A stretch of DNA of 64,000 nucleotides, taken from Romanomermis culicivorax. Taxonomy: Eukaryota; Nematoda; Enoplea; Mermithida; Mermithidae. A model generated the notes under the pieces. The model ran no database searches. It was given only the letters and a program-made list of their open reading frames with translations, and was not told the DNA's origin. Where the stretch lies: positions 868,001-932,000 of the forward strand of contig CAWUHX010000099.1 of the NCBI GenBank assembly GCA_963922205.1, in the 5' to 3' direction. This document shows positions 17,201 through 60,056 of this stretch, in pieces (position 1 is the stretch's first letter; each line of letters begins with the position of its first letter). Position numbers and translations under genes: made by a program.

Positions 17201-20200
17201 GAACGTCTGGATTGAATTGCTGATCCTCAGCCATGTTTCATACTCAGTATCCAGGTATTTTGGGTACCTGGGTATACCTACCCAGGTCAATTTTAAAAAT
17301 GAAACCTGGATGCTACCTATGTATTCGGGTGACCTGTTTGCCCGAATTTTTAACAAGATATTGTATGGGTAAAACACTTGTATACACCAATGTTCTAGTC
17401 CTCAGGTTGGATATGCAAAATACCTGGGTAACAAGAGTAGATACAAACAGGGCAACAAGATAAAGCATACAAAATTGCCTTTAAAAAGTTTTTGATTCAA
17501 CCATGCACATGCTACTTTGACACAATTATCATAGCCAAACTAATATCTCTAAACGGACGCATCTTTGATTTTAGATAGAACAAAATTGTATCAGACACCC
17601 ACATATAAAACACTATTCGCTAATTACTCATCTATATCTCTGTTAATGTGATGGGCAAACTTGCTCTGCTCTATGCCATAAAATCTGAATGTATTATAAT
17701 CCATCTTAAACAAAACGTATACATATAGCGCCTTTTGAATGAAAATGCCTTATTTGTAAGGCAATGTTTCAAGTCAATCTTATTTTCGTATTGCAGAGTT
17801 TTTCCTCATCTGTTAAAGCTCATTACAGTTGGAAGCATACATGTGCAGAGCTGATATGGGGACCCAGAGTTTTGAAATTGGAAGCCTTTTCCTGTATAAA
17901 AAAATTTTTTAGTATTTTTGGGATTTTGTCTCAAAAAACCAGGATCCACCCGTTCTGTAACCACTCTTTTCCTTCAGAGCTGCACATGTATGGTTGGAAG
18001 TAGCGATTCATAGGAAGAATTTTCGAGAGTGAGAGTTGAAAATCAAAAAATGGATTTCTAAAAAAAATCAATTTTTACTAATTCTTGTCAAAAAACCAGT
18101 CTTTAATGTGTTTTTAAATTTTGAAATAGTCCAGGGGTAGCCAATTGAGTTTTTCCAGAGGCCAGCCGGGTGTATCCAGAGTCTCAAGGGAAGAATTTAC
18201 TCCCCCACCCTATGTGGATCAATGGTTTATAGGTGTGATGGTGCACTCAGCTGCAGAATATACTTTTCCACGGACATGAAAAATCTTTTAATGAGAAAGA
18301 ATAAAAATCCAATATTACAAAAGTGGATTTTTCAAATTTTAACTCAAGTTCTCAAAAAGCTTGTTCAATGCTTTTTCTAGCTTGGCAACTATCCAAGCAA
18401 GTATATTCTACTTTTTTTCTGCTCCATGGGGGTATTTTCTAATAAACTAGTCCACCTCTTTTTAGTGGGCCTTAACCATGCATGAAAGCCTTCATAGAAG
18501 CACATTGAAGTTTTAAATTTGATCTCACATCAAAGAAACAATAAAAAACGATCTTAAACTGCAAATTCTCATTTTCTGTAAAAGTGCACGTCGTAAACGG
18601 AATGTAAACTGACCATATCTGTTGAATTCCCCACGTTCTAAAATCCTCAGCTCAAAAAATCGCAGAAATACCTTTGTTTACACAAAGAACAATTTTTAGC
18701 TTAAAGTGACCGTATCCATTGAAATCCTTGCAGTCGAAAACCCTTTTCACCAAGAAATCACGAAAATACGCTAGTTTACACCCAGAATAATTTTTTTATG
18801 TCAAGTGACCGCATCCGTTGAATTCCCTGCAGCCGAAAACCCCTTCACCAAAAAATCTTGAAAATACGCTTGTTTACGACGGGGATAATTTTTTTGTGTA
18901 AACTGACCGCAACAGCCGGAATAATTTTTTTGTGTAAAGTGGCTGCATTCATTGAATACCCTGTTGTCGAAAACCCCTTCCACCAGAAAATCACGATAAC
19001 ACGCTTGTTACACCCCGGATTATTTTTTGTGTAAAGTGACCGCATCTATTGAATTCCCTATAGTCGAAAACCCCTTCTCTTAAAAGGCCACGGAAATACC
19101 TTTGTTTTACACGCAGGATAATCAGATCACACTACATCTGTTTCATAAAAATGATTTTTTAAGCCAAACGAAGAGAATTCTCTCCAACTTTGGTCACTCA
19201 TATAATTTGACCAAATCAATATTTTCAAAAAATAAAAAAGCTTTTCGAGTGGACACGGGTAAGATTATCAAGGTCTAGAGATGCATACCCATCAAGGAAC
19301 CTGGTGCAACTGGGACCCAAAAAAATTCCGTTATGTTTTTGGCACCCACCGAGCACCATTTGATTATAGACCCCAATGACCTTTGCTACCCCTATGTTTG
19401 CCCATATGGCTGATATTACTCATGTCTCTATCTATAACCGTTTTTGCTCTAGGGGGGTTAGTCAGATTTTAGGGGGCCAAGTATAACAGGCTGCCGCTAC
19501 AGCGCCACCTATGATATCCTCGTAATTTTTTACTAAATGGTAAGTCATCGAAGGACTGTTCAACTAACCTATCCATTTTTAAAATGAAAAATTACGCAGT
19601 AAGGGCCAGATGGTTTCGACGTCAGTGTGCTGATTTTTGGCATTCTCAATTTAGACATGTTTAGTAAAAAATGCATTTTACATCCTAGATTTACCATGTA
19701 GAAACAAAACTGCACAGCTTCATGTCTTAAGTAATGTGAATTTTTAGATATATTTTTTGCACATGGCTTGTTTACACGCATACATTTTATGCGGTCTAAT
19801 ACTGCCAATTCTACGAGTTCGGTTATTTATTTGAATACTCACACATTCGAGGTCATTTTGGAACAAATCTACTTACTTTGTTTGGCTGGAAACCAGAGAT
19901 AAATCAAGTTTGAAGGCTGCTAATTTCGGAATTTTTAGAGGACTCAATAATCTATAGGATGACGCATTGAAGATTAGTCGCATCAGTACCATCAAAAACA
20001 TTCTGAATTTTATTCGGAATCAACTGTTCCAGAACAAAAATGTTTTTCTAAATACGGTATTTAAAAAACTAGGAGTTGTCTAAGCTCTTATTTTAAGATA
20101 AATAATAAAAATTATGCTAGTATGGAATCATATCGAAGTCTCGTCTGTTTTCGAAATCCTCAGAGGGATGGGTTAGGCCTGAACGGAATTTTGTATTTTT

Positions 20201-23200
20201 CGTGCATCTTTTTTTTATGCATTCCTGGACAGTCAAAGAAAATATCATGTCAAATTCGCAAGGAAAAACAATGAATAAATTTGTTATCATAGGTGGGGCG
20301 ATAGCGTCCACTTATAATATACTTGAGCCCCAAAATTCATGTCCCTCCCCTTAGAGCCAGAACGGTAAGAGCTAGAACCTTGGGTTTTTCTGCATAAATG
20401 CAAAAAACGCACTTTTTAAGAGCCCCCAGTTCCACCATGCCCCGCAATGGGTGTGCCATATCCGAGCTCCATACTTCGCCCTAAGCATCTTGGAGGTGCA
20501 ATCTCAAATAGATTTTTTCATTTTTTAAAAATATAGCCCCAATTCAATTATACCGATGGCTTCAAAAAATATGCAGCACGGTGCCAGAATTTTTTGCGAT
20601 TTCAATGGAACCAGTAGGGTTATTGTGATTTTCGGGGCGCAGGGTTTTCGATCATGGGCAACCCAATGAACACAGTCACTTTACACGAAAAATTGTCCTG
20701 AGTTTAAAACAAAGGCTTCCGCGGTTTTTTGAGGGAAGGAGTTTTTAACCATGGAGAATTCAATTGACGCGATCAGTTTACACAAAAAAATTGTCCCGAG
20801 TGTAAATAAACGTATCACCGCAATTTTTTGGTGGAAGATGTTCTCGACCGCGGGCAATTCAATGGTCGAGGGCATTTTACAGAAAGAATCGTCAGGAATT
20901 AAACATAGATATTTCCGCGAATTTTTGGTGGAAGAGGATTTCAACCGGGAGTTATTCAATGGATGCGGCTAATTTACACCAAACAAATTATGACGAGTGT
21001 AAACAAACGTATTTCCGCGATTTTTTTGGTGAAAGGGGTTTTTGACCACAGAGAATTCAATGGACGCGATCACTTTATACAAAAAATTATCATTAAGTGT
21101 AAAGAAATGTATGAATGTGATATTTTCGGGGAAGGGGTTTTCGGCTATAGAGAATTCGATGGATGCAGTCACATCCCACAAAAAAATTATCCTGAGTATA
21201 AGCAAACGTATTTTCGGGATTTTTGCGAGAAGGAGTTTCTGATCATGGGAATTTCAATGGATACGATAACTTTACATAAGAAAATTATTCTGAGTGTAAA
21301 CAAATGCATTTCCGCGACTTTTTGGGGAAATAAATATTTGACAGTGGGGAATTCAATGGAGGCAGTTACTTTACATACAAAGAAAGCTGGGTATAAACAA
21401 AAGTATTTCTGCGATTATTTGGATGGAGGGATTTGGCCATGAGGAATTCTATGGATATACGCACTTTTCACTTTGTTTACAAGTGTTTTAAGTACTATGC
21501 AGTTTGCACATCTTTTATTTTTATGGAAAGTGGGAATGCGTAGCTTTAAGATGTTTTTTACTGTTTCTTCGATGTGAAGATAGCCAAATTTAAAACTTCA
21601 ATGTGCTTCAACGAAAGTTTTCATGCATGGTTGAGACCCACTAAAAGGAGGTGGACTAGTTTTTTAAGGAAATGCCCGTATGGGACAGAAAAAAGAGGAA
21701 TACACTTGCTTGGATTGTTGCCAAACTAGAAAAAGGGGTGGACTGAGAGATTAAAAAATCCAGCTTAGTAATATTGAATTTTTATTCTTTCTCATTAAAA
21801 AATTTTTCATGTCGCTGAAGAAGTGTATCCTGCAGCTGAGTGCATCAACACACCTTCCAACCATACATGTGCAGTTCGAAAATTTTGAGGAGAGTGCAGA
21901 GGATGGGCTCCGGGTAGTTGACGTTTTTTAGACAAAAAACCAATGAAGTTGGCCAAAAATTTTTTTTCACGTGAAAAATTTTCAAGTTTCAAAACCCTGA
22001 GGGTAGGTGCCCCTTCCCGCTCGCACATATGTGCTTTCAACTCTTACTAAATTTATTGTCCATAAAACAGGAATCAACTGTGGGAAGTAAACACATGACA
22101 TCCAGCTCAGGTTTTGATAGAAAAAGTTACAGCACAAAGTCTTCCTAGAACTAAATCAATTGTGTGAACATAAATTTTGGATCAGATTACTAATATAAAC
22201 GACAGCTATTATAAAAACAAAGGTTTTAGCATATGGTATTTATTGTGAAGCGATTCCACAATGAGGAATGCATGGCATTACTTAAACATCGTTGAACGCT
22301 CGATTTTCAGGTAACTGTAATTTGACACGAAATAGACCGTAAATTATAAGTGCTTAACTACCGTTGTTTAATAAATTTAAAAAGAGGACTGTAGTCTATC
22401 TTATTCCAAATGGGTCTCGGCGCGCAGAAAGATGTTCCTGCAAATAATGAACAACCTGCGTATACGAACAAACAGTAAGGTCAATAAAGTGCGAAAAAAT
22501 ATTTCGGCAAGCGATGAAGGGTGATTTCCTGCCCACTTAATTTCTATGCATAATTTTACTTTCCGAGGCTAATTTGAAAATGAATAAACTATAAAATAGA
22601 TGTAGTACCTGAGGAATAAATTATGGCTGGCTTGAATGCTAAAAGATTTCCAGGCTAAAAATTCTGTGACCACAATTACCAGAACCCTGCTGACGCGCGC
22701 CAACCTCGGTTCTGTGTTTTTCTTCTCCGCGAATTTTCTCATCAGAAACGGTTACTGAGATTCACAGAGTCAATTTCATTTACAGATAGCCGCGAAAAAG
22801 CATATGTCCACGCCATTAGCGCAGCCGGTGTGGCCTTCAGCATAACGAGAGCCTGCAGCAGGGGTGAACTACCATCCTGTTCTTGCGACAAGAATGTCCA
22901 TCGAAGAACGAAAAATAAAGTAAGAGTTTTAAATAAGGAACTCGCACTTCAAGTCAAGTTTACCCCTTCTAAATGGTCATTTATACTTGCCTTTTTCGGC
23001 GGAACGGAATGCAATCGACACAACGTTACCGAACGGAAGGAAAAGTTTCATTCCGTTCGGTTCGGTTGGAGGTTACCGTCGGTCATTTTCTAGAAATTTG
23101 CAGTTATCTTTTGCGATCGAAAGTTGATTTTCAGGCTGAACGGTTCAAGCTGTTGGCGATCGGTTCCGTTCCGTTCCATCGAAAAAGGCAAGTATAAATG

Positions 23201-28253: not shown

Positions 28254-29022
28254 TTAAGGGCCATCTATACTTCACCGCACGCGAATTACTTCGCCGCAAT
28301 TTTTCGCCGCTACTTTTGCCAATTACTTCGCCGTAAGGCACATGATAGGGCCAACTCAAATAGCCTACTACAACCCATGCGCCAGCATCGCGGAAAAGGC
28401 TCTTGCATTAGACCTTTATATCAATTATTGCGGCGCTCATGGCGCATGCGGCGTTTGGATTTTCTGGGCTCGTATAGCTTCATTTCTGATGCGATGCTTG
28501 TGGCTTTCGAACATTTTCAGATGGTGAATGTGTTTTTCTACGTGTAAATATTTAATAGGCAAAATGTACACAGAAAAGACAAAATTAACATTGGTCGATA
28601 TGAGACAATGCTAATAATATGTACAGAAAAATGCAGCTTTAATTCATTAGCTGAATATGAATGCAGCCTTTTCACACACGCCTAATGCTTCACTCATCAG
28701 TACTCCAAAAACAAATATTCGTACATAGCATGCATGCTGACTAAAGCCAAGCTATATGAATACCTACACATCATTAATATTTAACCAAAAAAGTTTGGCA
28801 TATTTCTATGGAGAAATATCAAAAAAAGATTTGGATATTTGTACCCAGAAATATCAAAAAAGATTTGCATATTTATATGGCCAACTCATATTTCAAGTTG
28901 CAGAAAACTCAGCTTAGTTTTTGTGGTCTGGTTGCACACTTCGCCATCTTTTCGATCGTTAGGTACTTAACTTTCTGTTGTGTTATGGCAAAGCAAAAAG
29001 ACTGTATCGTTATAGCCACCAA

Positions 29023-30003
29023 ATTTAATTATGTGTGGCGATTCAGCCACCATCTCGTTTCGGCCACTGTATCTTTTCAGCCACCATCTCGTTTTAGCCA
29101 CTTTTTCATTTCAGTCACTGCACGCATAACGTGACAATTTCTATTTTCTATACTCAATAATTATCTCAATTGATCGATATTTATTATTCTTTTTCTTTTT
29201 GTTAATTTTTTTCTTCTTATTCTCCATCTCTTACTTTTCGCAACATTTCTCTTTTGTTTCATTTTTTCGTGTTGCATTATTTCGATTTTTCGTTCTTGAT
29301 CGTTTCCTCGCGTGCCCGTTATTTTTCTCATCGATTTATTTTTGTATCTTGCATTTTCCTTCTTTTCTTCTCACATTTCCTTGATTCTGTATGGTCTTCA
29401 TTTTGTCTCCACTCAAAACATTTCTTTCCTTTCTCCGTTTTCTTTTCTCTGTTGATTTTGTTTTTTCTAATATCCTTTTGTCAGTTTCTTATTTTTCTTG
29501 TTTTCGTTTTTTTTATTTTTACTTTTTATTAACCATTTTTCATGTGTCTTTTACCATTTTTTGTCACTTTCTTATTTTTTGTCCTGCATGTCCGGGCCAT
29601 TTTCCCAGTAATTTTGATCCAGTGTTTTTTGATCCGTAAATCATCTCCTAGTTTACAGGACGCCATGGAATGTTAATTAATGCCGTCAGGGGACTAATAC
29701 GCCAATTTAGGAAGGATAGGCGTCCATTTGCATCTCAAATCCAGGAAGAGTGCTTTTTTCAGAAGCCACAAAATACTCAAATTTGGGAAGAAAGTACGAA
29801 AAAAACGAATGAGCAGAAAATTCAGAATATTAATCTCATTATTTTAAACGAATCATCTGAAAATTTACATCATATTCGTGTTTAATGTCATAGTCACTCG
29901 TACTCTCAGCTTAGTGGCTAAAACGATACAGTGGCTGAAACGAGATGGTGGTCGAAATGACACAGTGACTGAATCGACACACCTGATAAAAAATTGGTGG
30001 CTG
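29023..30003. mobile_element. Nested ~1-kb element with inverted ends made of repeated CAGCCACCATCTCG motifs
   Basis: At 29010-29125 the plus strand reads repeated CAGCCACCATCTCGTTT and GGCCACTGTATC units. At 29915-30003 the reverse complement of the same units appears (GTGGCTGAAACGAGATGG, CGATACAGTGGC). The ends face each other across a pyrimidine-rich core. There is no coding potential beyond chance frames. Confidence 0.55.
29140..29640. repeat. Pyrimidine-rich tract
   Basis: About 500 bp in which the plus strand is overwhelmingly T and C (TTTCTTTTTG, TTCTTCTTATTCTCC and similar). A second such tract of about 230 bp lies at 30330-30560. The long plus-strand frames here, rich in Phe, Ser and Leu, are by-products of this composition. 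Confidence 0.6.
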
Positions 30004-30568
30004 GAACCATACGTGTGCACGGGGGGGGGGTTTGACCCCCCCAGAATGGCTGCTGACCCCGGACAGATTTTTCCTGACCCCCGCAGCAGAATTCGAAATT
30101 TCGGAATTTTTTTGGACTTTTCATAATTTTTATGTGCCAAATTGGCAAAAAATGAAAAATTTTCCCCCAGATTTTCGATACTGAACCAAAAGCTTGTATT
30201 TTTGATGTGAACATTTTGTTTCAATGCATTTATCAAAAAACATTTTTTTTCAAATATCCCATTACTTTGAATGCATTGTTCATGTTGCATGATGTGGAAT
30301 CATAAAAATTTGCGTTTTTCACCTGTGTGAACTTTCATTCAATATTTGTGTTATTTTTTGTCTACTGTTTCACTTTCTCATTATTTTCAGTTTCGATTTC
30401 TTCCTTTCTTTTGGTATCAACCATTCTCTTATCATTTTTGTTCCTGGTTTACCTATCTTCTTCCCATTTTAATTCTCTGGTATATATTTTTGTTTCTTTT
30501 TCTTTTCAATTTTTTCTTCATTTTTCCTTTTCATCTTTTCTTTGGGTTTCTCTAATTTTTTTACGCCC

Positions 30569-31615
30569 CATGCGCCACAAACGCCTCATGCGCCACAAAC
30601 GCTCAATGCGCCACAAACGCCTAAAGCGCCACAAACGCCCCATACGCCACAAACGCCTCATGCGCCACAAACGCCCAATGCGCCACAAACGCCTCATGCG
30701 CCACAAAGGCTCCATACGCCACAAACGCCCCATGCGCCACAAACGCCTCATGCGCCACAAACGCCCAATGCGCCACAAACGCCTCATGCGCCACGAACGC
30801 CCCATGCGCCACAAACGCCTCATGCGCCACAAACGCCCAATGCGCCACAAACGCCTCATGCGCCACAAACGCCTCATGCGCCACAAACGCCCCATGCGCC
30901 ACAAACGCCTCATGCGCCACAAACGCCCAATGCGCCACAAACGCCTCATGCGCCACAAACGCCCCATGCGCCACAAACGCCTCATGCGCCACAAACGCCC
31001 CATGCGCCACAAACGCCTCATGCGCCACAAACGCCTCATGCGCCACAAACGCCCCATGCGCCACAAACGCCCCATGCGCCACAAACGCCTCATGCGCCAC
31101 AAACGCCCCATGCGCCACAAACGCCTCATGCGCCACAAACGCCTCATGCGCCACAAACGCCCCATGCGCCACAAACGCCTCATGCGCCACAAACGCCTCA
31201 TGCGCCACAAACGCCCCATGCGCCACAAACGCCCCATGCGCCACAAACGCCTCATGCGCCACAAACGCCCCATGCGCCACAAACGCCTCATGCGCCACAA
31301 ACGCCCAATGCGCCACAAACGCCTCATGCGCCACAAACGCCCAATGCGCCACAAACGCCTCATGCGCCACAAACGCCCCATGCGCCACAAACGCCTCATG
31401 CGCCACAAACGCCCCATACGCCACAAACGCCCCATGCGCCACAAACGCCTCATGCGCCACAAACGCCTCATGCGCCACAAACGCCCCATGCGCCACAAAC
31501 GCCCCATGCGCCACAAACGCCCCATGCGCCACAAACGCCTCATGCGCCACAAACGCCTCATTCGCCACAAACGCCTCATTTGCCACAAACGCCTCATTCG
31601 CCATATGCGCCATGA
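30569..31615. repeat. 18-bp satellite array, about 58 units
   Basis: The unit is ACGCCYCATGCGCCACAA repeated head to tail with few substitutions. One position alternates T, C or A (CCTCATG, CCCCATG, CCCAATG). Because 18 is a multiple of three and the unit has no stop, several frames on both strands stay open for over 300 codons; these give MRHKRP, HAPQTP and FVAHEA periodic peptides, and I do not call them genes. The first and last units are the most diverged, as expected at array edges. Confidence 0.95.
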
Positions 31616-31857
31616 ACGCCTCATGAAACAACACTTACAGAATGATAAATTCAAAACTTTTAACACTATAATGCAAAACATAGTAGTAGGCTAACAGAGT
31701 TGGGCCACATGATAAGTGGCTGCCACATGATAAGTGGCGCAGTTTTTCGCCGCTACTTTTGCCAATTACTTCGTAAGGCACATGATAAGTGGCTGCTATA
31801 CTTACATGCCATATGGCACTGTACGGTGCCGCACGGCGAAGTATAGTTAGCCCTTTA

Positions 31858-37512: not shown

Positions 37513-39416
37513 TAGTTGATTCCAGTTTTATTGACACTAAATTTAGAAAAAAAGCTCAATCCAGTTAGAAGCACACATGTGTAATGGAGGACATGGGCCG
37601 TACAAACTACCCCAAGGGTTTTGAAACTGGAAAATTCGTTATGAAAGTAAATTTTTTGGTCAACTTTTTTTTTAATTTTTTGTCTTAAAAACGCCAAAAA
37701 ACCAAGGTCCACCTCTGTACCCTCCTCAAAATTTCGCAGATGCGCATGTTTGGTTGGAAAGTGTGTTGATGCACTCAGCTGCAGAACATACTTTTTGACA
37801 GACTTGGAAAACTGTTTTGAGAAAGAATGAAAATCCGATATGACGGAAGTGAATTTTTTCCAACTTTAACTCAAGTTCTCAAAAATCTTGTCCACTTCTT
37901 TTTCTAGCTTGGTAACTATCCAAGCCGGTATATTCTTTTTTGTTCTGCCCTGTCAAGGCATTTTCTAATAAACTAGTCCACCTCTTTTTAGTGGACCTCA
38001 GCCATGCATGAAAACCTTTGTAGATGCACAATTGAAGTTTTAAATTTGGTCATCTTCACATCAAAGAAACAAAAAAACAATCTTGAAGCCATGAATTCTC
38101 ACTTTCGGTAAAAGCAGAAGATGTGTAAACTGTACAGAACTTAAAACACGTTGTAAACATGGTGTAAAAAGAGCATTTCCATTGAATTCCCCATGGTCAG
38201 TAACCTCTTCCCCCAAAAGTCGCAGAAATACATTGGTACACACTCAATTTAAGTTTCTGGGTAAAGTGATCGCATTCATTAAATTCGCCGTGGTCGAAAA
38301 CCCCTTCCACACAAAATCACGAAAATACAATTGTTGACACCCGGGACAACTTTTTTATGTTAAGTGACCGCATTCATTGAATTCCCCGTCGTCCAAAACT
38401 CCTTGCCCCATATTATCACAAAAATACGCTTGTTTACACCCGCGATAATCTTTCGTGTAGAATGACCGCGTCCATCGAATTCCCAATGGTCAAAAACTCT
38501 TTCCCTCAAAAAGTCATGGAAGTACTTTCGTTTACATTAATGATGATTTTTTTGTGTAAAGTGACCGCATCCATTAAATTCGCTTGAGTCGAAAACCCTT
38601 TCCATCAAAAGATCACTAAAATACGCTTGGTTACACTCCAGATAATTTTTGTGTAAAGTGACCGCGTCCATTGAATTCCCAATGGTCGAAAACCCCTTCC
38701 ACCGAAAAATTACAAAAATACGCCTCTTTAATAATAATATTCGTGTAAAGTGACCGCGTCCATCGAATTCCCAATGGTCGAAAGCCTCTTGCTCCAAAAA
38801 GTCACGGGAGTACCTTCATTTACATTATTGATGATTTTTTGTGTAAAGTGACCGCGTCCATTGAATTTCCCATAATCAAAAAACCCTTAAATCCCCAAAA
38901 TCCCAATAAGGCTACCGGTTCAATTGAAACTGCAAAAACTTCGGGCACCGTAGCGCATAATGCTGCAAAAAATTATTTTTTTGAAGCCGTTAAGTCTATA
39001 TAACAAAATTGTCAAATTTCGCGGTTCCCGTGACCTTAGACAACCACATAATTGAATGGAGACCATATTTTTTAAAAATAAAAAATCGCACTTGAGATTG
39101 AACCCCCAAGATGCTTCGGCCGAAGTATGGACGTTGGATATGGCACACTCATTGCTGGGCATGGTGAAACTGGGCCCAAAAAAGTGCGTTTTTTGCTTGT
39201 TTTTGGGGCCCCGCCGAGCACCACTTGCAGATAGAGGCGAAATGACAAAAGGCACCCCATAGTTTGCTCTTATGCCCGAAACTATGAAAAAAACCCGAAG
39301 GTTCTAGCTCTAACCGTTTTGGCTCTAGGGGAGGGGGGACATGAAATTTGGGGGCAAAGTCTATTATAGGTTGACGCTGTCGCGCCACCTATGATAAATG
39401 TAGTTTTACTCGTGTA
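37513..39416 (+). repeat. Large composite repeat with 84-bp array, copy C
   Basis: It begins near AGTTGATTCCAGTTTTATTG and ends at CGCGCCACCTATGATA, the same termini as copy B. The array at 38107-38880 has about nine units of about 84 bp (GTAAAGTGACCGCGTCC, GTCGAAAACCCCTTCC). Its last 500 bp matches the 3' parts of copies A and B (GCCGAGCACCACTTG, CTAACCGTTTTGGCTCTAGG). Confidence 0.75.
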
Positions 39417-57690: not shown

Positions 57691-60056
57691 ATGGTACAGC
57701 AAAATGTCGGCTCAGCGTTGATTGCGGTTGTGGACAGTTCGAAAGTCAACATTGGCTATAATGCAGGTGGGTATGGCTTCTAAAAGTCGGCGAGTTTTAC
57801 TGTATCTTATGAAAAAACTGAAAGCAAAGCATTGAATTATTGAAAACCTTTTTGGGCGAATTTTCCAGCAAGTGCATCAATTTACTAAAATCTGAAGTAT
57901 CGTGCAACACTGTGAACTCGGAACATAACTGTTTTAGTTTATATCTAAACTTCAATGATAAGTGTACTTCAGAATAACGAATAGTGAATCACGAATGATC
58001 ACTTTTGTGAAGCATTGTAAAAGGTATCTAAAAAACTAAGTTTTGTTTTCTCTATTTTTTACAATCTAAAAAGTTTTGATGTTAATGCAGACAATACCAT
58101 AGTTCTGATTTTCGTCAATGATGATCCTGTTTGCATTTTTACCTTGGAGAATGTGCGTAAATCGTGTTAACAATTTCTCCGATGAAAACTTCCCGCCTAT
58201 TAACAAATGATACTCCATAATAAATACTTAGCAACTTTAACATCTCATCCTACGACATCTTATCAGAGAGGTTATCACGCTGCAAACGAAAATAATTCTA
58301 CACGAGACTCTTCAATTCTATATTTTGTTAGTTGGGAATCAAAGTGATATCTGATATTTACAGAATCAAGTAATTTTTTGTCAACCATTACTTTTATATC
58401 TTTCCAATTTTGCGAGTAATCAATTGGAAAGAAATATTCTTGTAATTTTCTGCTAGATCATTAAACTATTTTGAAGACAACACGGTTTTGTCATTCTGTA
58501 GATTTACAAGCATTCCATAAGTGACAGATCATTGATCATGAATGAAAATGATTTGACGTTTTGCATGCTAGTTCCGGATGTGAAAACTGCTGAAATGGTT
58601 TTAAACCTGACTCTTAAGCTCTATTTCTTTCTGATGGTCGTGCATGATAAAATTTGAATGTTCGGATTGACAAATGCCATTTTGTAACAAGTCTTTCTAC
58701 TCCACTTTACAGATCTCATAAACAACAATTCTACCAATTTGAACTTGAACATTATGAACTCAGCTCCTTCAAACATCAATAGCAGCAACGGCGCTCCTAT
58801 GATCCATTCCGTCGGATCGAATAGTCCCTTGAGTAACACTTCCAGTACGGACAGCAACGGATTTCCGGTCAAAGATCATGATGCGTTGAAATTATTTGTC
58901 GGGCAAATACCCAGGAATTTAGAAGAAAAGCATTTGCGACCGTTGTTCGAACAATTCGGCAAAATTTACGAATTTACCATCCTGAAGGATAAGTTCACCG
59001 GCATGCATAAGGGTGAGGGCCTAGATAAAACTCGGAATTGGATCCTGCCTGAAACTACACCCAGCCATCTAATCCAACAATTTATAGTCTTAAATCCAGA
59101 TGTAGATTCTAAATAGGACTGGGTCAAGCTTAGGGTTAGGCGTTCCGGATCCTTCGGATATTTGTCCCAAAAATTGTTGGATTCAGCTTGTTCCGGCTCT
59201 TCTTTTACTCGTCGTACACGTGAACCATAAATCCAAAATCAGAAAAAGATCCAAAAAACTGTTCCTCCGAGAGTACCGTTGATTTTTTTCATTCCTGCAT
59301 TGCAAAAATGTATCTTTCACATTCTACCTGTAGTATTGATATTCCACCTAGTCCACGGGAGCCAAACCCGTTTGTGGCGACCTCAGATCGGTTTGATCAC
59401 ATTGACCTTGTGACTTCTCAGTGATGGAAGAACTTCGCCACCACCTCGAGGCCCTTCAACGAATTATTTATCCAGGAATAAATTTCAACTTGATTATTTT
59501 TCCATCACATCTTTGTGCATGTTTATTTGCGGTTGCGAGGAGTGATAAGAAACATAATTTTGTGCAGTAATACACCTAAAAATAATCTGTCTTGTATAAA
59601 AGCAGATTTAATTTCTTCCTGGAAAAGATGTATAGAACTCGAAAGTTGATGCCGTACCTCCTTAATGCTTTACCTGCAGGAAAAACTTATTGTCTCAAAG
59701 TTTCCGAATGCTCTTTCTCTGCCATAAACACAGAAACGTAAGCATTCCTCACAAAAGCAGAGTCTGTGTTTACTATTAAGGTTAATAATTAATTTGTTCA
59801 TGGAAAAAGGTCATCTTGCCGATTCTTACGTTATTGTTTATAATCCAAATTATCGTTTGTCACATTACCAAGAAAAAGAGTGCAATATTCAAAACAACAG
59901 TTGAAAATTATTGCATCAACTGGTTCATTTGGTCAAATTTTTGTCTGAAACAACCTCCTACTTTCTATTTCAGGATGTGCCTTCCTAACTTATTGTCACA
60001 GAACATCGGCCTACAAATGTCAAGCAATGTTGCACGACCAAAAAACTTTGCCCGGG
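57691..60056 (+). CDS. CELF4/Bruno-3-type RNA-binding protein, 5' part (continues beyond the last exon found)
   Basis: Three coding exons join in phase: 57691-57766 (ATG), 58713-59012 and 59974-60056, giving 153 residues before the gene leaves recognisable sequence. After a low-complexity N-terminus (Asn/Ser/Thr-rich, [14 protein letters not shown] and NTSSTDSNG) the first RRM follows: [16 protein letters not shown] with the RNP2 strand, [16 protein letters not shown], then GCAFLTYC as RNP1 and [14 protein letters not shown] and QKTLPG mark the CELF3-6/Bruno-3 branch; CELF1/2 differ there. These proteins act in alternative splicing and mRNA stability, binding GU-rich elements. Two more RRMs are expected downstream. 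The donor after LPG (GTAAGA at 60057) is in the position expected for the family, but the next exon is not seen before 64000. An upstream non-coding exon is likely. Confidence 0.92.
57767..58712 (+). other. CELF intron 1
   Basis: GTGGGT donor to TTTACAG acceptor. AT-rich, no feature seen. Confidence 0.7.
59013..59973 (+). other. CELF intron 2
   Basis: GTGAGG donor to TATTTCAG acceptor. No repeat or gene is recognised. The open frame that runs past the donor to 59116 is intron readthrough. Confidence 0.7.

Follow-up and report, generated by a model that had tools for sequence, protein, structure and literature searches.

A tandem array that sits in one arm of a transposon while the other arm holds a single inverted copy of its unit raises a simple question: was the array born in this very copy, was it captured from elsewhere, or is it an inherited part of the transposon's end? 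We addressed this question for a locus of Romanomermis culicivorax, in a window (the whole stretch of DNA analysed) of 64,000 nucleotides. The earlier note on this DNA had described an array of about 58 units in a right arm and an inverted near-copy of the unit in a left arm, and here we agree with it: both are present, the strings CGCCATGAACGCC and CGCCATGAGCGCC stand as it gave them, and the unit in one arm and the array in the other do belong together in one transposon. With a 20-base unit as query, the best match in the window outside the array (17/20) is at 28439 on the minus strand, the next being 16/20. The left arm scores 38 against its own unit (20 shuffles reach at most 23) and 16 against the unit of a distant family, C79, for which the shuffle maximum is 18. 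The features on which the argument rests are the following (no strand is given where none applies).

28348..31706, plus strand: non-autonomous Merlin-type transposon of 3359 bp, an internal deletion derivative
28340..28347: left target-site duplication, ACATGATA
31707..31714: right target-site duplication, ACATGATA
28348..28371, plus strand: left terminal inverted repeat, GGGCCAACTCAAATAGCCTACTAC
31683..31706, plus strand: right terminal inverted repeat, GTAGTAGGCTAACAGAGTTGGGCC
28440..28457, minus strand: single inverted unit in the left arm (17/18, in phase)
30563..31603, plus strand: 18-bp tandem array in the right arm, about 58 units (Tandem Repeats Finder, period 18, 57.8 copies)
31607..31706, plus strand: right arm, conserved across families
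29001..29003: deletion junction, about 1.1 kb (DUF3987 gene) relative to long copies, whose alignments break there
30562..30563: deletion junction, about 3 kb relative to long copies (rest of the DUF3987 gene, transposase and degenerate left edge of the array lost)
28257..28347: outer repeat, left piece, the insertion target of the element, lying beyond the limits of all sister copies of the inner element
31715..31854: outer repeat, right piece, found at 84-90% in at least 20 other places

The limits of the transposon are narrower than had been thought. What the earlier note took for a single element with long arms (28257-31854) is in fact two nested things: an inner element at 28348-31706, with a perfect 8-bp duplication on both sides and with GGGCCAACTC..TAGCCTACTAC and GTAGTAGGCTA..GAGTTGGGCC as imperfect terminal inverted repeats, and on either side a piece of another repeat, to which the outermost similarity between the arms belongs. 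A search with the left arm gave 20 matches of at least 97%, the window included, and one with the right end gave 19 of at least 98%. Besides the window, 18 of the 19 left-arm matches start at query position 89-92, that is, at the inner end (28345-28348), and the remaining one is partial and starts at query position 149. The right part of the outer repeat recurs in its at least 20 further places among the 40 of 272 candidates that were scored; three copies of this repeat, compared for the empty site, gave no clean one, their alignments coming in overlapping pieces. Since the sister copies start at the inner end, and since the duplication flanks the inner element, we reject the single long-armed element.

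Some other features of the window are mentioned here for completeness. Short 17-bp repeats (TTCAGCCACCATCTCGT) stand inverted at 29042-29118 and 29913-29977, either side of a pyrimidine-rich stretch which, in long copies, separates two parts of the DUF3987 gene. Tandem repeats of another kind, of about 98-99 bp (134 bp in one row), occupy 18653-19044, 20643-21421 and 38178-38872, and the flank of one copy (L009) resembles them. A frame at 58739-59113 holds a partial RNA recognition motif (RRM_1, E 4.5e-8) and is probably an exon of a host gene; this motif was the sole Pfam match among the nine window frames searched.

The history of the array can be read from its close sisters. Besides the window we examined 20 loci, 19 of the same family and one diverged (L028). 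An array is present in 20 of these 21 sequences, with 17 to 96 recognisable units in the stretches read (the arrays of L020 and L025 being seen in part); in L028 none was found in the stretch read, which showed no right end. One more right end, on C52 (L042), is also array-bearing. All 20 near-identical copies, the window included, thus have the array, and the order of units is common to them. The 8-bp duplication is perfect in 14 of the 15 copies with both ends and agrees at 7 of 8 bases in the C7 copy, L013, L015 and L018 standing outside this count for want of a right end. L017 and L024, both among the 15, lie on one contig with a common target site and probably go back to a single insertion that was duplicated. 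On C118, two long copies about 200 kb apart (794445-802884 and 998013-1005590) have a common 8-bp target site and similar flanks, probably through segmental duplication.

Outside the array, the divergence among twelve deletion-derivative copies is 0.09-1.8% (mean 0.7%); their unit numbers nevertheless range from 17 to 69. Their unit maps run in the same order in the window (58 units), L010 and L016 (49 each), L014 (46) and L012 (69): apart from an additional block of nine units and a few single-unit differences, the window map is equal to those of L010 and L016, a block of about 23 units is repeated in L012, and L011 differs from L012 by about 22 units at 0.1% divergence. In long copies the left edge of the array fades into degenerate units, and the middle is more uniform. 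The array is inherited, and it changes by blocks, fast relative to point changes. The earlier note had seen in this copy the captured birth of a satellite, a piece of the right arm having been expanded about 58-fold. The contrast between one inverted unit on the left and a long array on the right does invite such an idea, but the sisters all carry the array, and the two with 49 units, whose map is the same, differ by little more than one block. Because the sisters share the order of units, the array was inherited and not amplified 58-fold in the window copy; we reject that amplification and give a birth in this copy next to no probability. The origin of the first array predates everything observed here.

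Could the array have been taken up from a satellite living elsewhere in the genome? Many satellites are known to spread with transposons (according to the accessible part of PMC12628747), and free arrays of the unit outside the element had been named in advance as an observation that would refute a birth in this copy. In the assembly we counted 390 matches to the exact two-unit pattern (146 forward, 244 reverse): the copies that we read account for 146 forward and 190 reverse matches, and 54 places on C7 are the rest. All 390 are inside copies of the element and none is outside them, so that for exact pairs across the whole assembly there is no sign of the arrays outside mobile elements that define an independent satellite DNA. 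Moreover, related families have arrays of their own in the same place. Capture of a free satellite is rejected at the level of exact pairs, and we consider it very improbable. Hardly more can be said for the array as part of a repetitive protein-coding gene. Four long frames do cross it in the window, two on each strand, but a stop-free 18-bp unit by itself keeps frames open, and units of 16, 17 and 19 bp break the frame in several copies; it is on these frame-shifting lengths that we reject a coding repeat, whose probability we put as low as that of capture.

One copy has grown out of all proportion. The C7 copy spans about 41.5 kb (C7:1922267-1963775), its left end being at 1963775 and its right end at 1922267, with about 35 kb of array between them. 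Three stretches of 1,971, 9,001 and 2,001 bases (about 13 kb) were read; the latter two consist wholly of the unit, as does the first save for the right terminal 111 bases. This suggests an array of about 1,900 units, of which about 21 kb are known through scattered exact matches only and to which assembly error may contribute. Distances of 3,813 and about 7,000 bases recur between the exact matches on C7.

What kind of transposon carries the array is best seen from four long copies, joined from adjoining stretches (7.6, 8.4, 11.4 and 12.1 kb). They encode a DUF3987 protein upstream and an IS1595-type transposase downstream, in frames that stops interrupt in several copies; most of both genes is missing from the window copy, at 29002 and 30562. 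Because L026 has a gag-like retrotransposon frame, the larger long copies must be at least partly swollen by nested inserts. In L026 the transposase matches DDE_Tnp_IS1595 (PF12762) at 1.2e-27 and NF033547 at 1.1e-34 (120 bits for a cut-off of 75). The DUF3987 domain matches at 8.4e-13. The terminal inverted repeats begin with GG (left GGGCCAACTC.., complement of right GGCCCAACTC..), and the duplication of 8 bp agrees with the 8 or 9 bp of Merlin. The accessible part of PMC8101967 states that Merlin lacks the Zn_Tnp_IS1595 domain; the Pfam model of this domain gave no match at E 1 or better in our transposase, which shows by eye two CxxC pairs and has weak zinc-like matches (0.016-0.99), all below cut-off. 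The element is of Merlin type: transposase, duplication and ends fit. The same source gives a single transposase gene for the related IS1595 insertion sequences, and here there is a second gene, for DUF3987, inside the element and upstream of the transposase. Because the single-gene rule is stated there, in the part accessible, for bacterial elements, we take the two-gene arrangement as a variant of Merlin.

Is this partnership general? We merged 62 DUF3987 matches into 46 loci, six of which are of the main family. At 14 of the other 40 (C79, C351, C122, C86, C87, C48, C420, C139, C177, C146, C65, C39, C444 and C133), a transposase follows 1.75-3.6 kb downstream on the same strand, for a chance expectation of 0.02; this count used 83 of 150 transposase rows, those weaker than E 2.4e-12 and second fragments being omitted. 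It is possible that these 14 pairs represent a two-gene Merlin lineage. The remaining 26 have no transposase within 5 kb in that arrangement (three of them have one nearby in another orientation), and two loci that bear units, C9 and C123, have no DUF3987 match nearby, so that the link between the array and the DUF3987 gene is not a strict one. In the open-access literature we found no eukaryotic transposon with DUF3987 (one match concerned bacteria), and the term is absent from the accessible part of the Merlin survey PMC8101967.

The array is not a peculiarity of the youngest copies. Among 19 diverged right ends, all read in part and representing about 12 independent places by their flanks (common to L052, L053, L056 and L064; to L059 and L060; to L061, L065 and L066; and to L062 and L063), 16 carry 2.8 to 29.8 degenerate units at 70-88% identity, with unit scores of 40-654 for a maximum of 24 in 95 shuffles. 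The other three, L066, L068 and L069, have no units within about 1 kb, and copies without the segment in their arms had been named beforehand as evidence against an expansion in place. But in L066, whose flank is common with two array-bearing copies, other sequence replaces the array, and the similarity of L068 and L069 is confined to the last 40-45 bases, so that the three do not show an older, array-free state. The sequence that L066 has in place of the array is seen by eye in L078 as well, after its array, and is a chimeric or nested piece. On the left, six of seven diverged arms show two groups of inverted unit matches and L051 one weak group, the window arm having one (shuffle controls cover the window arm and that of C79); an array is absent from all eight.

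More distant relatives tell us whether it is the unit itself or only its place that is conserved. Of the 14 regions read on the downstream side of more distant transposases, all but L084 have an array; in nine of these 13 the right end is visible just past it, and it is unseen in the pieces read of L078, L081, L082 and L085. Counting the window's there are seven unit types, a type being at times represented by several arrays, so that these are not 14 independent cases. For lags up to 20, every one of the 14 arrays (the window's among them) peaks at 9, 17 or 18, and each has more C than G on the transposase strand. The types are graded, those of the window, L077, L078 and L081 being partly alike: arrays of the C79 type score 28-36 for the window unit (shuffle maximum 20-24) and 58-68 for that of L081; for the same two units the C122 type has scores of 14 and 97, and the C139 type resembles no other. 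By construction, the best score of each array is for its own unit.

If the units serve for recognition, any family whose unit is different has to carry that unit of its own at the other end too. The C79 element (1154398-1160146, 5,749 bp, with the 8-bp duplication TAAATTTG) has open frames of 652 amino acids around DUF3987 and of 305 around the transposase. In its left arm, the C79 motif stands inverted six times at spacings of 34-40 bp; the arm scores 89 for this motif, which none of 40 shuffles reaches, and 12 for the window unit, which all 40 reach. The own unit is thus found at both ends in the two types read at both ends, of the seven known, the other five being those of the C48, C420, C122, C139 and C9 families.

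The array belongs by inheritance to the right end, and one or two inverted units in the left arm correspond to it. We think it rather probable, by analogy with Spm/En, that the units are family-specific binding sites working like the subterminal repeats of that system. The units would be recognised by a protein that the element encodes, either the transposase or the DUF3987 protein; motif and protein would change together, a minimum number of units would be kept, and unequal exchange or slippage would add or remove units in blocks, one copy having reached about 35 kb of array. The ends might also be kept alike by conversion between the inverted arms. A neutral minisatellite would dispense with the protein altogether: a C-rich stretch of 9-bp periodicity slips and drifts in each lineage, and conversion between the arms does the rest. 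Copies differing by 0.09-1.8% outside the array already range from 18 to 69 units, by blocks; the degenerate edges and more uniform middle in long copies are what unequal exchange predicts; and one array has grown to about 35 kb. All this is in favour of such a neutral process. Against it, position, strand bias and period are alike across seven unit types, at least about three units are kept in 16 of 19 right ends, and the left arm of C79 is no copy of the right array but a series of six spaced inverted motifs. We therefore regard the neutral alternative as unlikely, if a good deal less so than capture or a coding origin.

Returning to the binding-site reading, a broader proposal may be built on it, which we hold as plausible though with somewhat less than even confidence. 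There would be a two-gene lineage of Merlin in which each family has, at both ends, its own iteron-like repeat on a 9-bp base, read by the DUF3987 protein or the transposase of that family; the joint diversification of repeat and reader would end cross-mobilisation between families, and runaway growth of the repeat would lead, as a by-product, to satellite arrays. This genome has seven versions of the end, arrays that range from about three to roughly 1,900 units, and young copies, mostly less than 1% apart, with readable unit maps. Two questions become testable in this way: why tandem repeats are so often found in transposon ends, and how the recognition sequence of a family can change at both ends together. 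If confirmed in other species, the DUF3987 gene next to the Merlin transposase would moreover represent a type of partner new to that superfamily. This partner, and a family-private repeat common to both ends, are what we consider new here, having met neither in the open-access literature searched, which is less than a full survey and was in part accessible as portions of papers.

How does this element compare with known systems, so far as the accessible parts of the sources cited allow one to say? It shares with described Merlin elements the IS1595-type transposase, the GG ends and the 8-bp duplication, and both internal tandem repeats in Merlin and the idea of a proto-satellite are already published (PMC8101967); it differs from them in the DUF3987 gene upstream of the transposase and in arrays that one family after another has at its right end, with a 9-bp-based period and a private sequence. 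Transposon-borne satellites, such as the arrays of MITEs and Helentrons (PMC12628747, PMC7492417), likewise lie inside a mobile element and expanded in place, whereas here, for exact pairs, no copy of the array is found outside elements. The foldback elements Tetris and Galileo of Drosophila also have tandem repeats in their arms, which change in copy number, may seed satellite-like arrays and have been proposed to add sites for the transposase; these are, however, repeats of 220 bp in both arms, with no private 9-bp-based motif per family (PMC4079207). There is also a likeness with the CACTA elements of the Spm/En type, whose transposition requires a second element-encoded protein, TNPA, which binds short repeats within the two ends; these subterminal repeats vary between families (PMC2613891). 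There, as here, the short repeats inside the two ends are asymmetric and family-specific in sequence, a second protein exists besides the transposase, and deletion derivatives retain the ends. The differences are in the transposase, in the ends and duplication (GGGCC ends and 8 bp here, in place of CACTA ends and 3 bp), and in the arrays, which are tandem and far longer in our case and whose binding by a protein is putative. The element may thus work like Spm/En though it is no member of that group.
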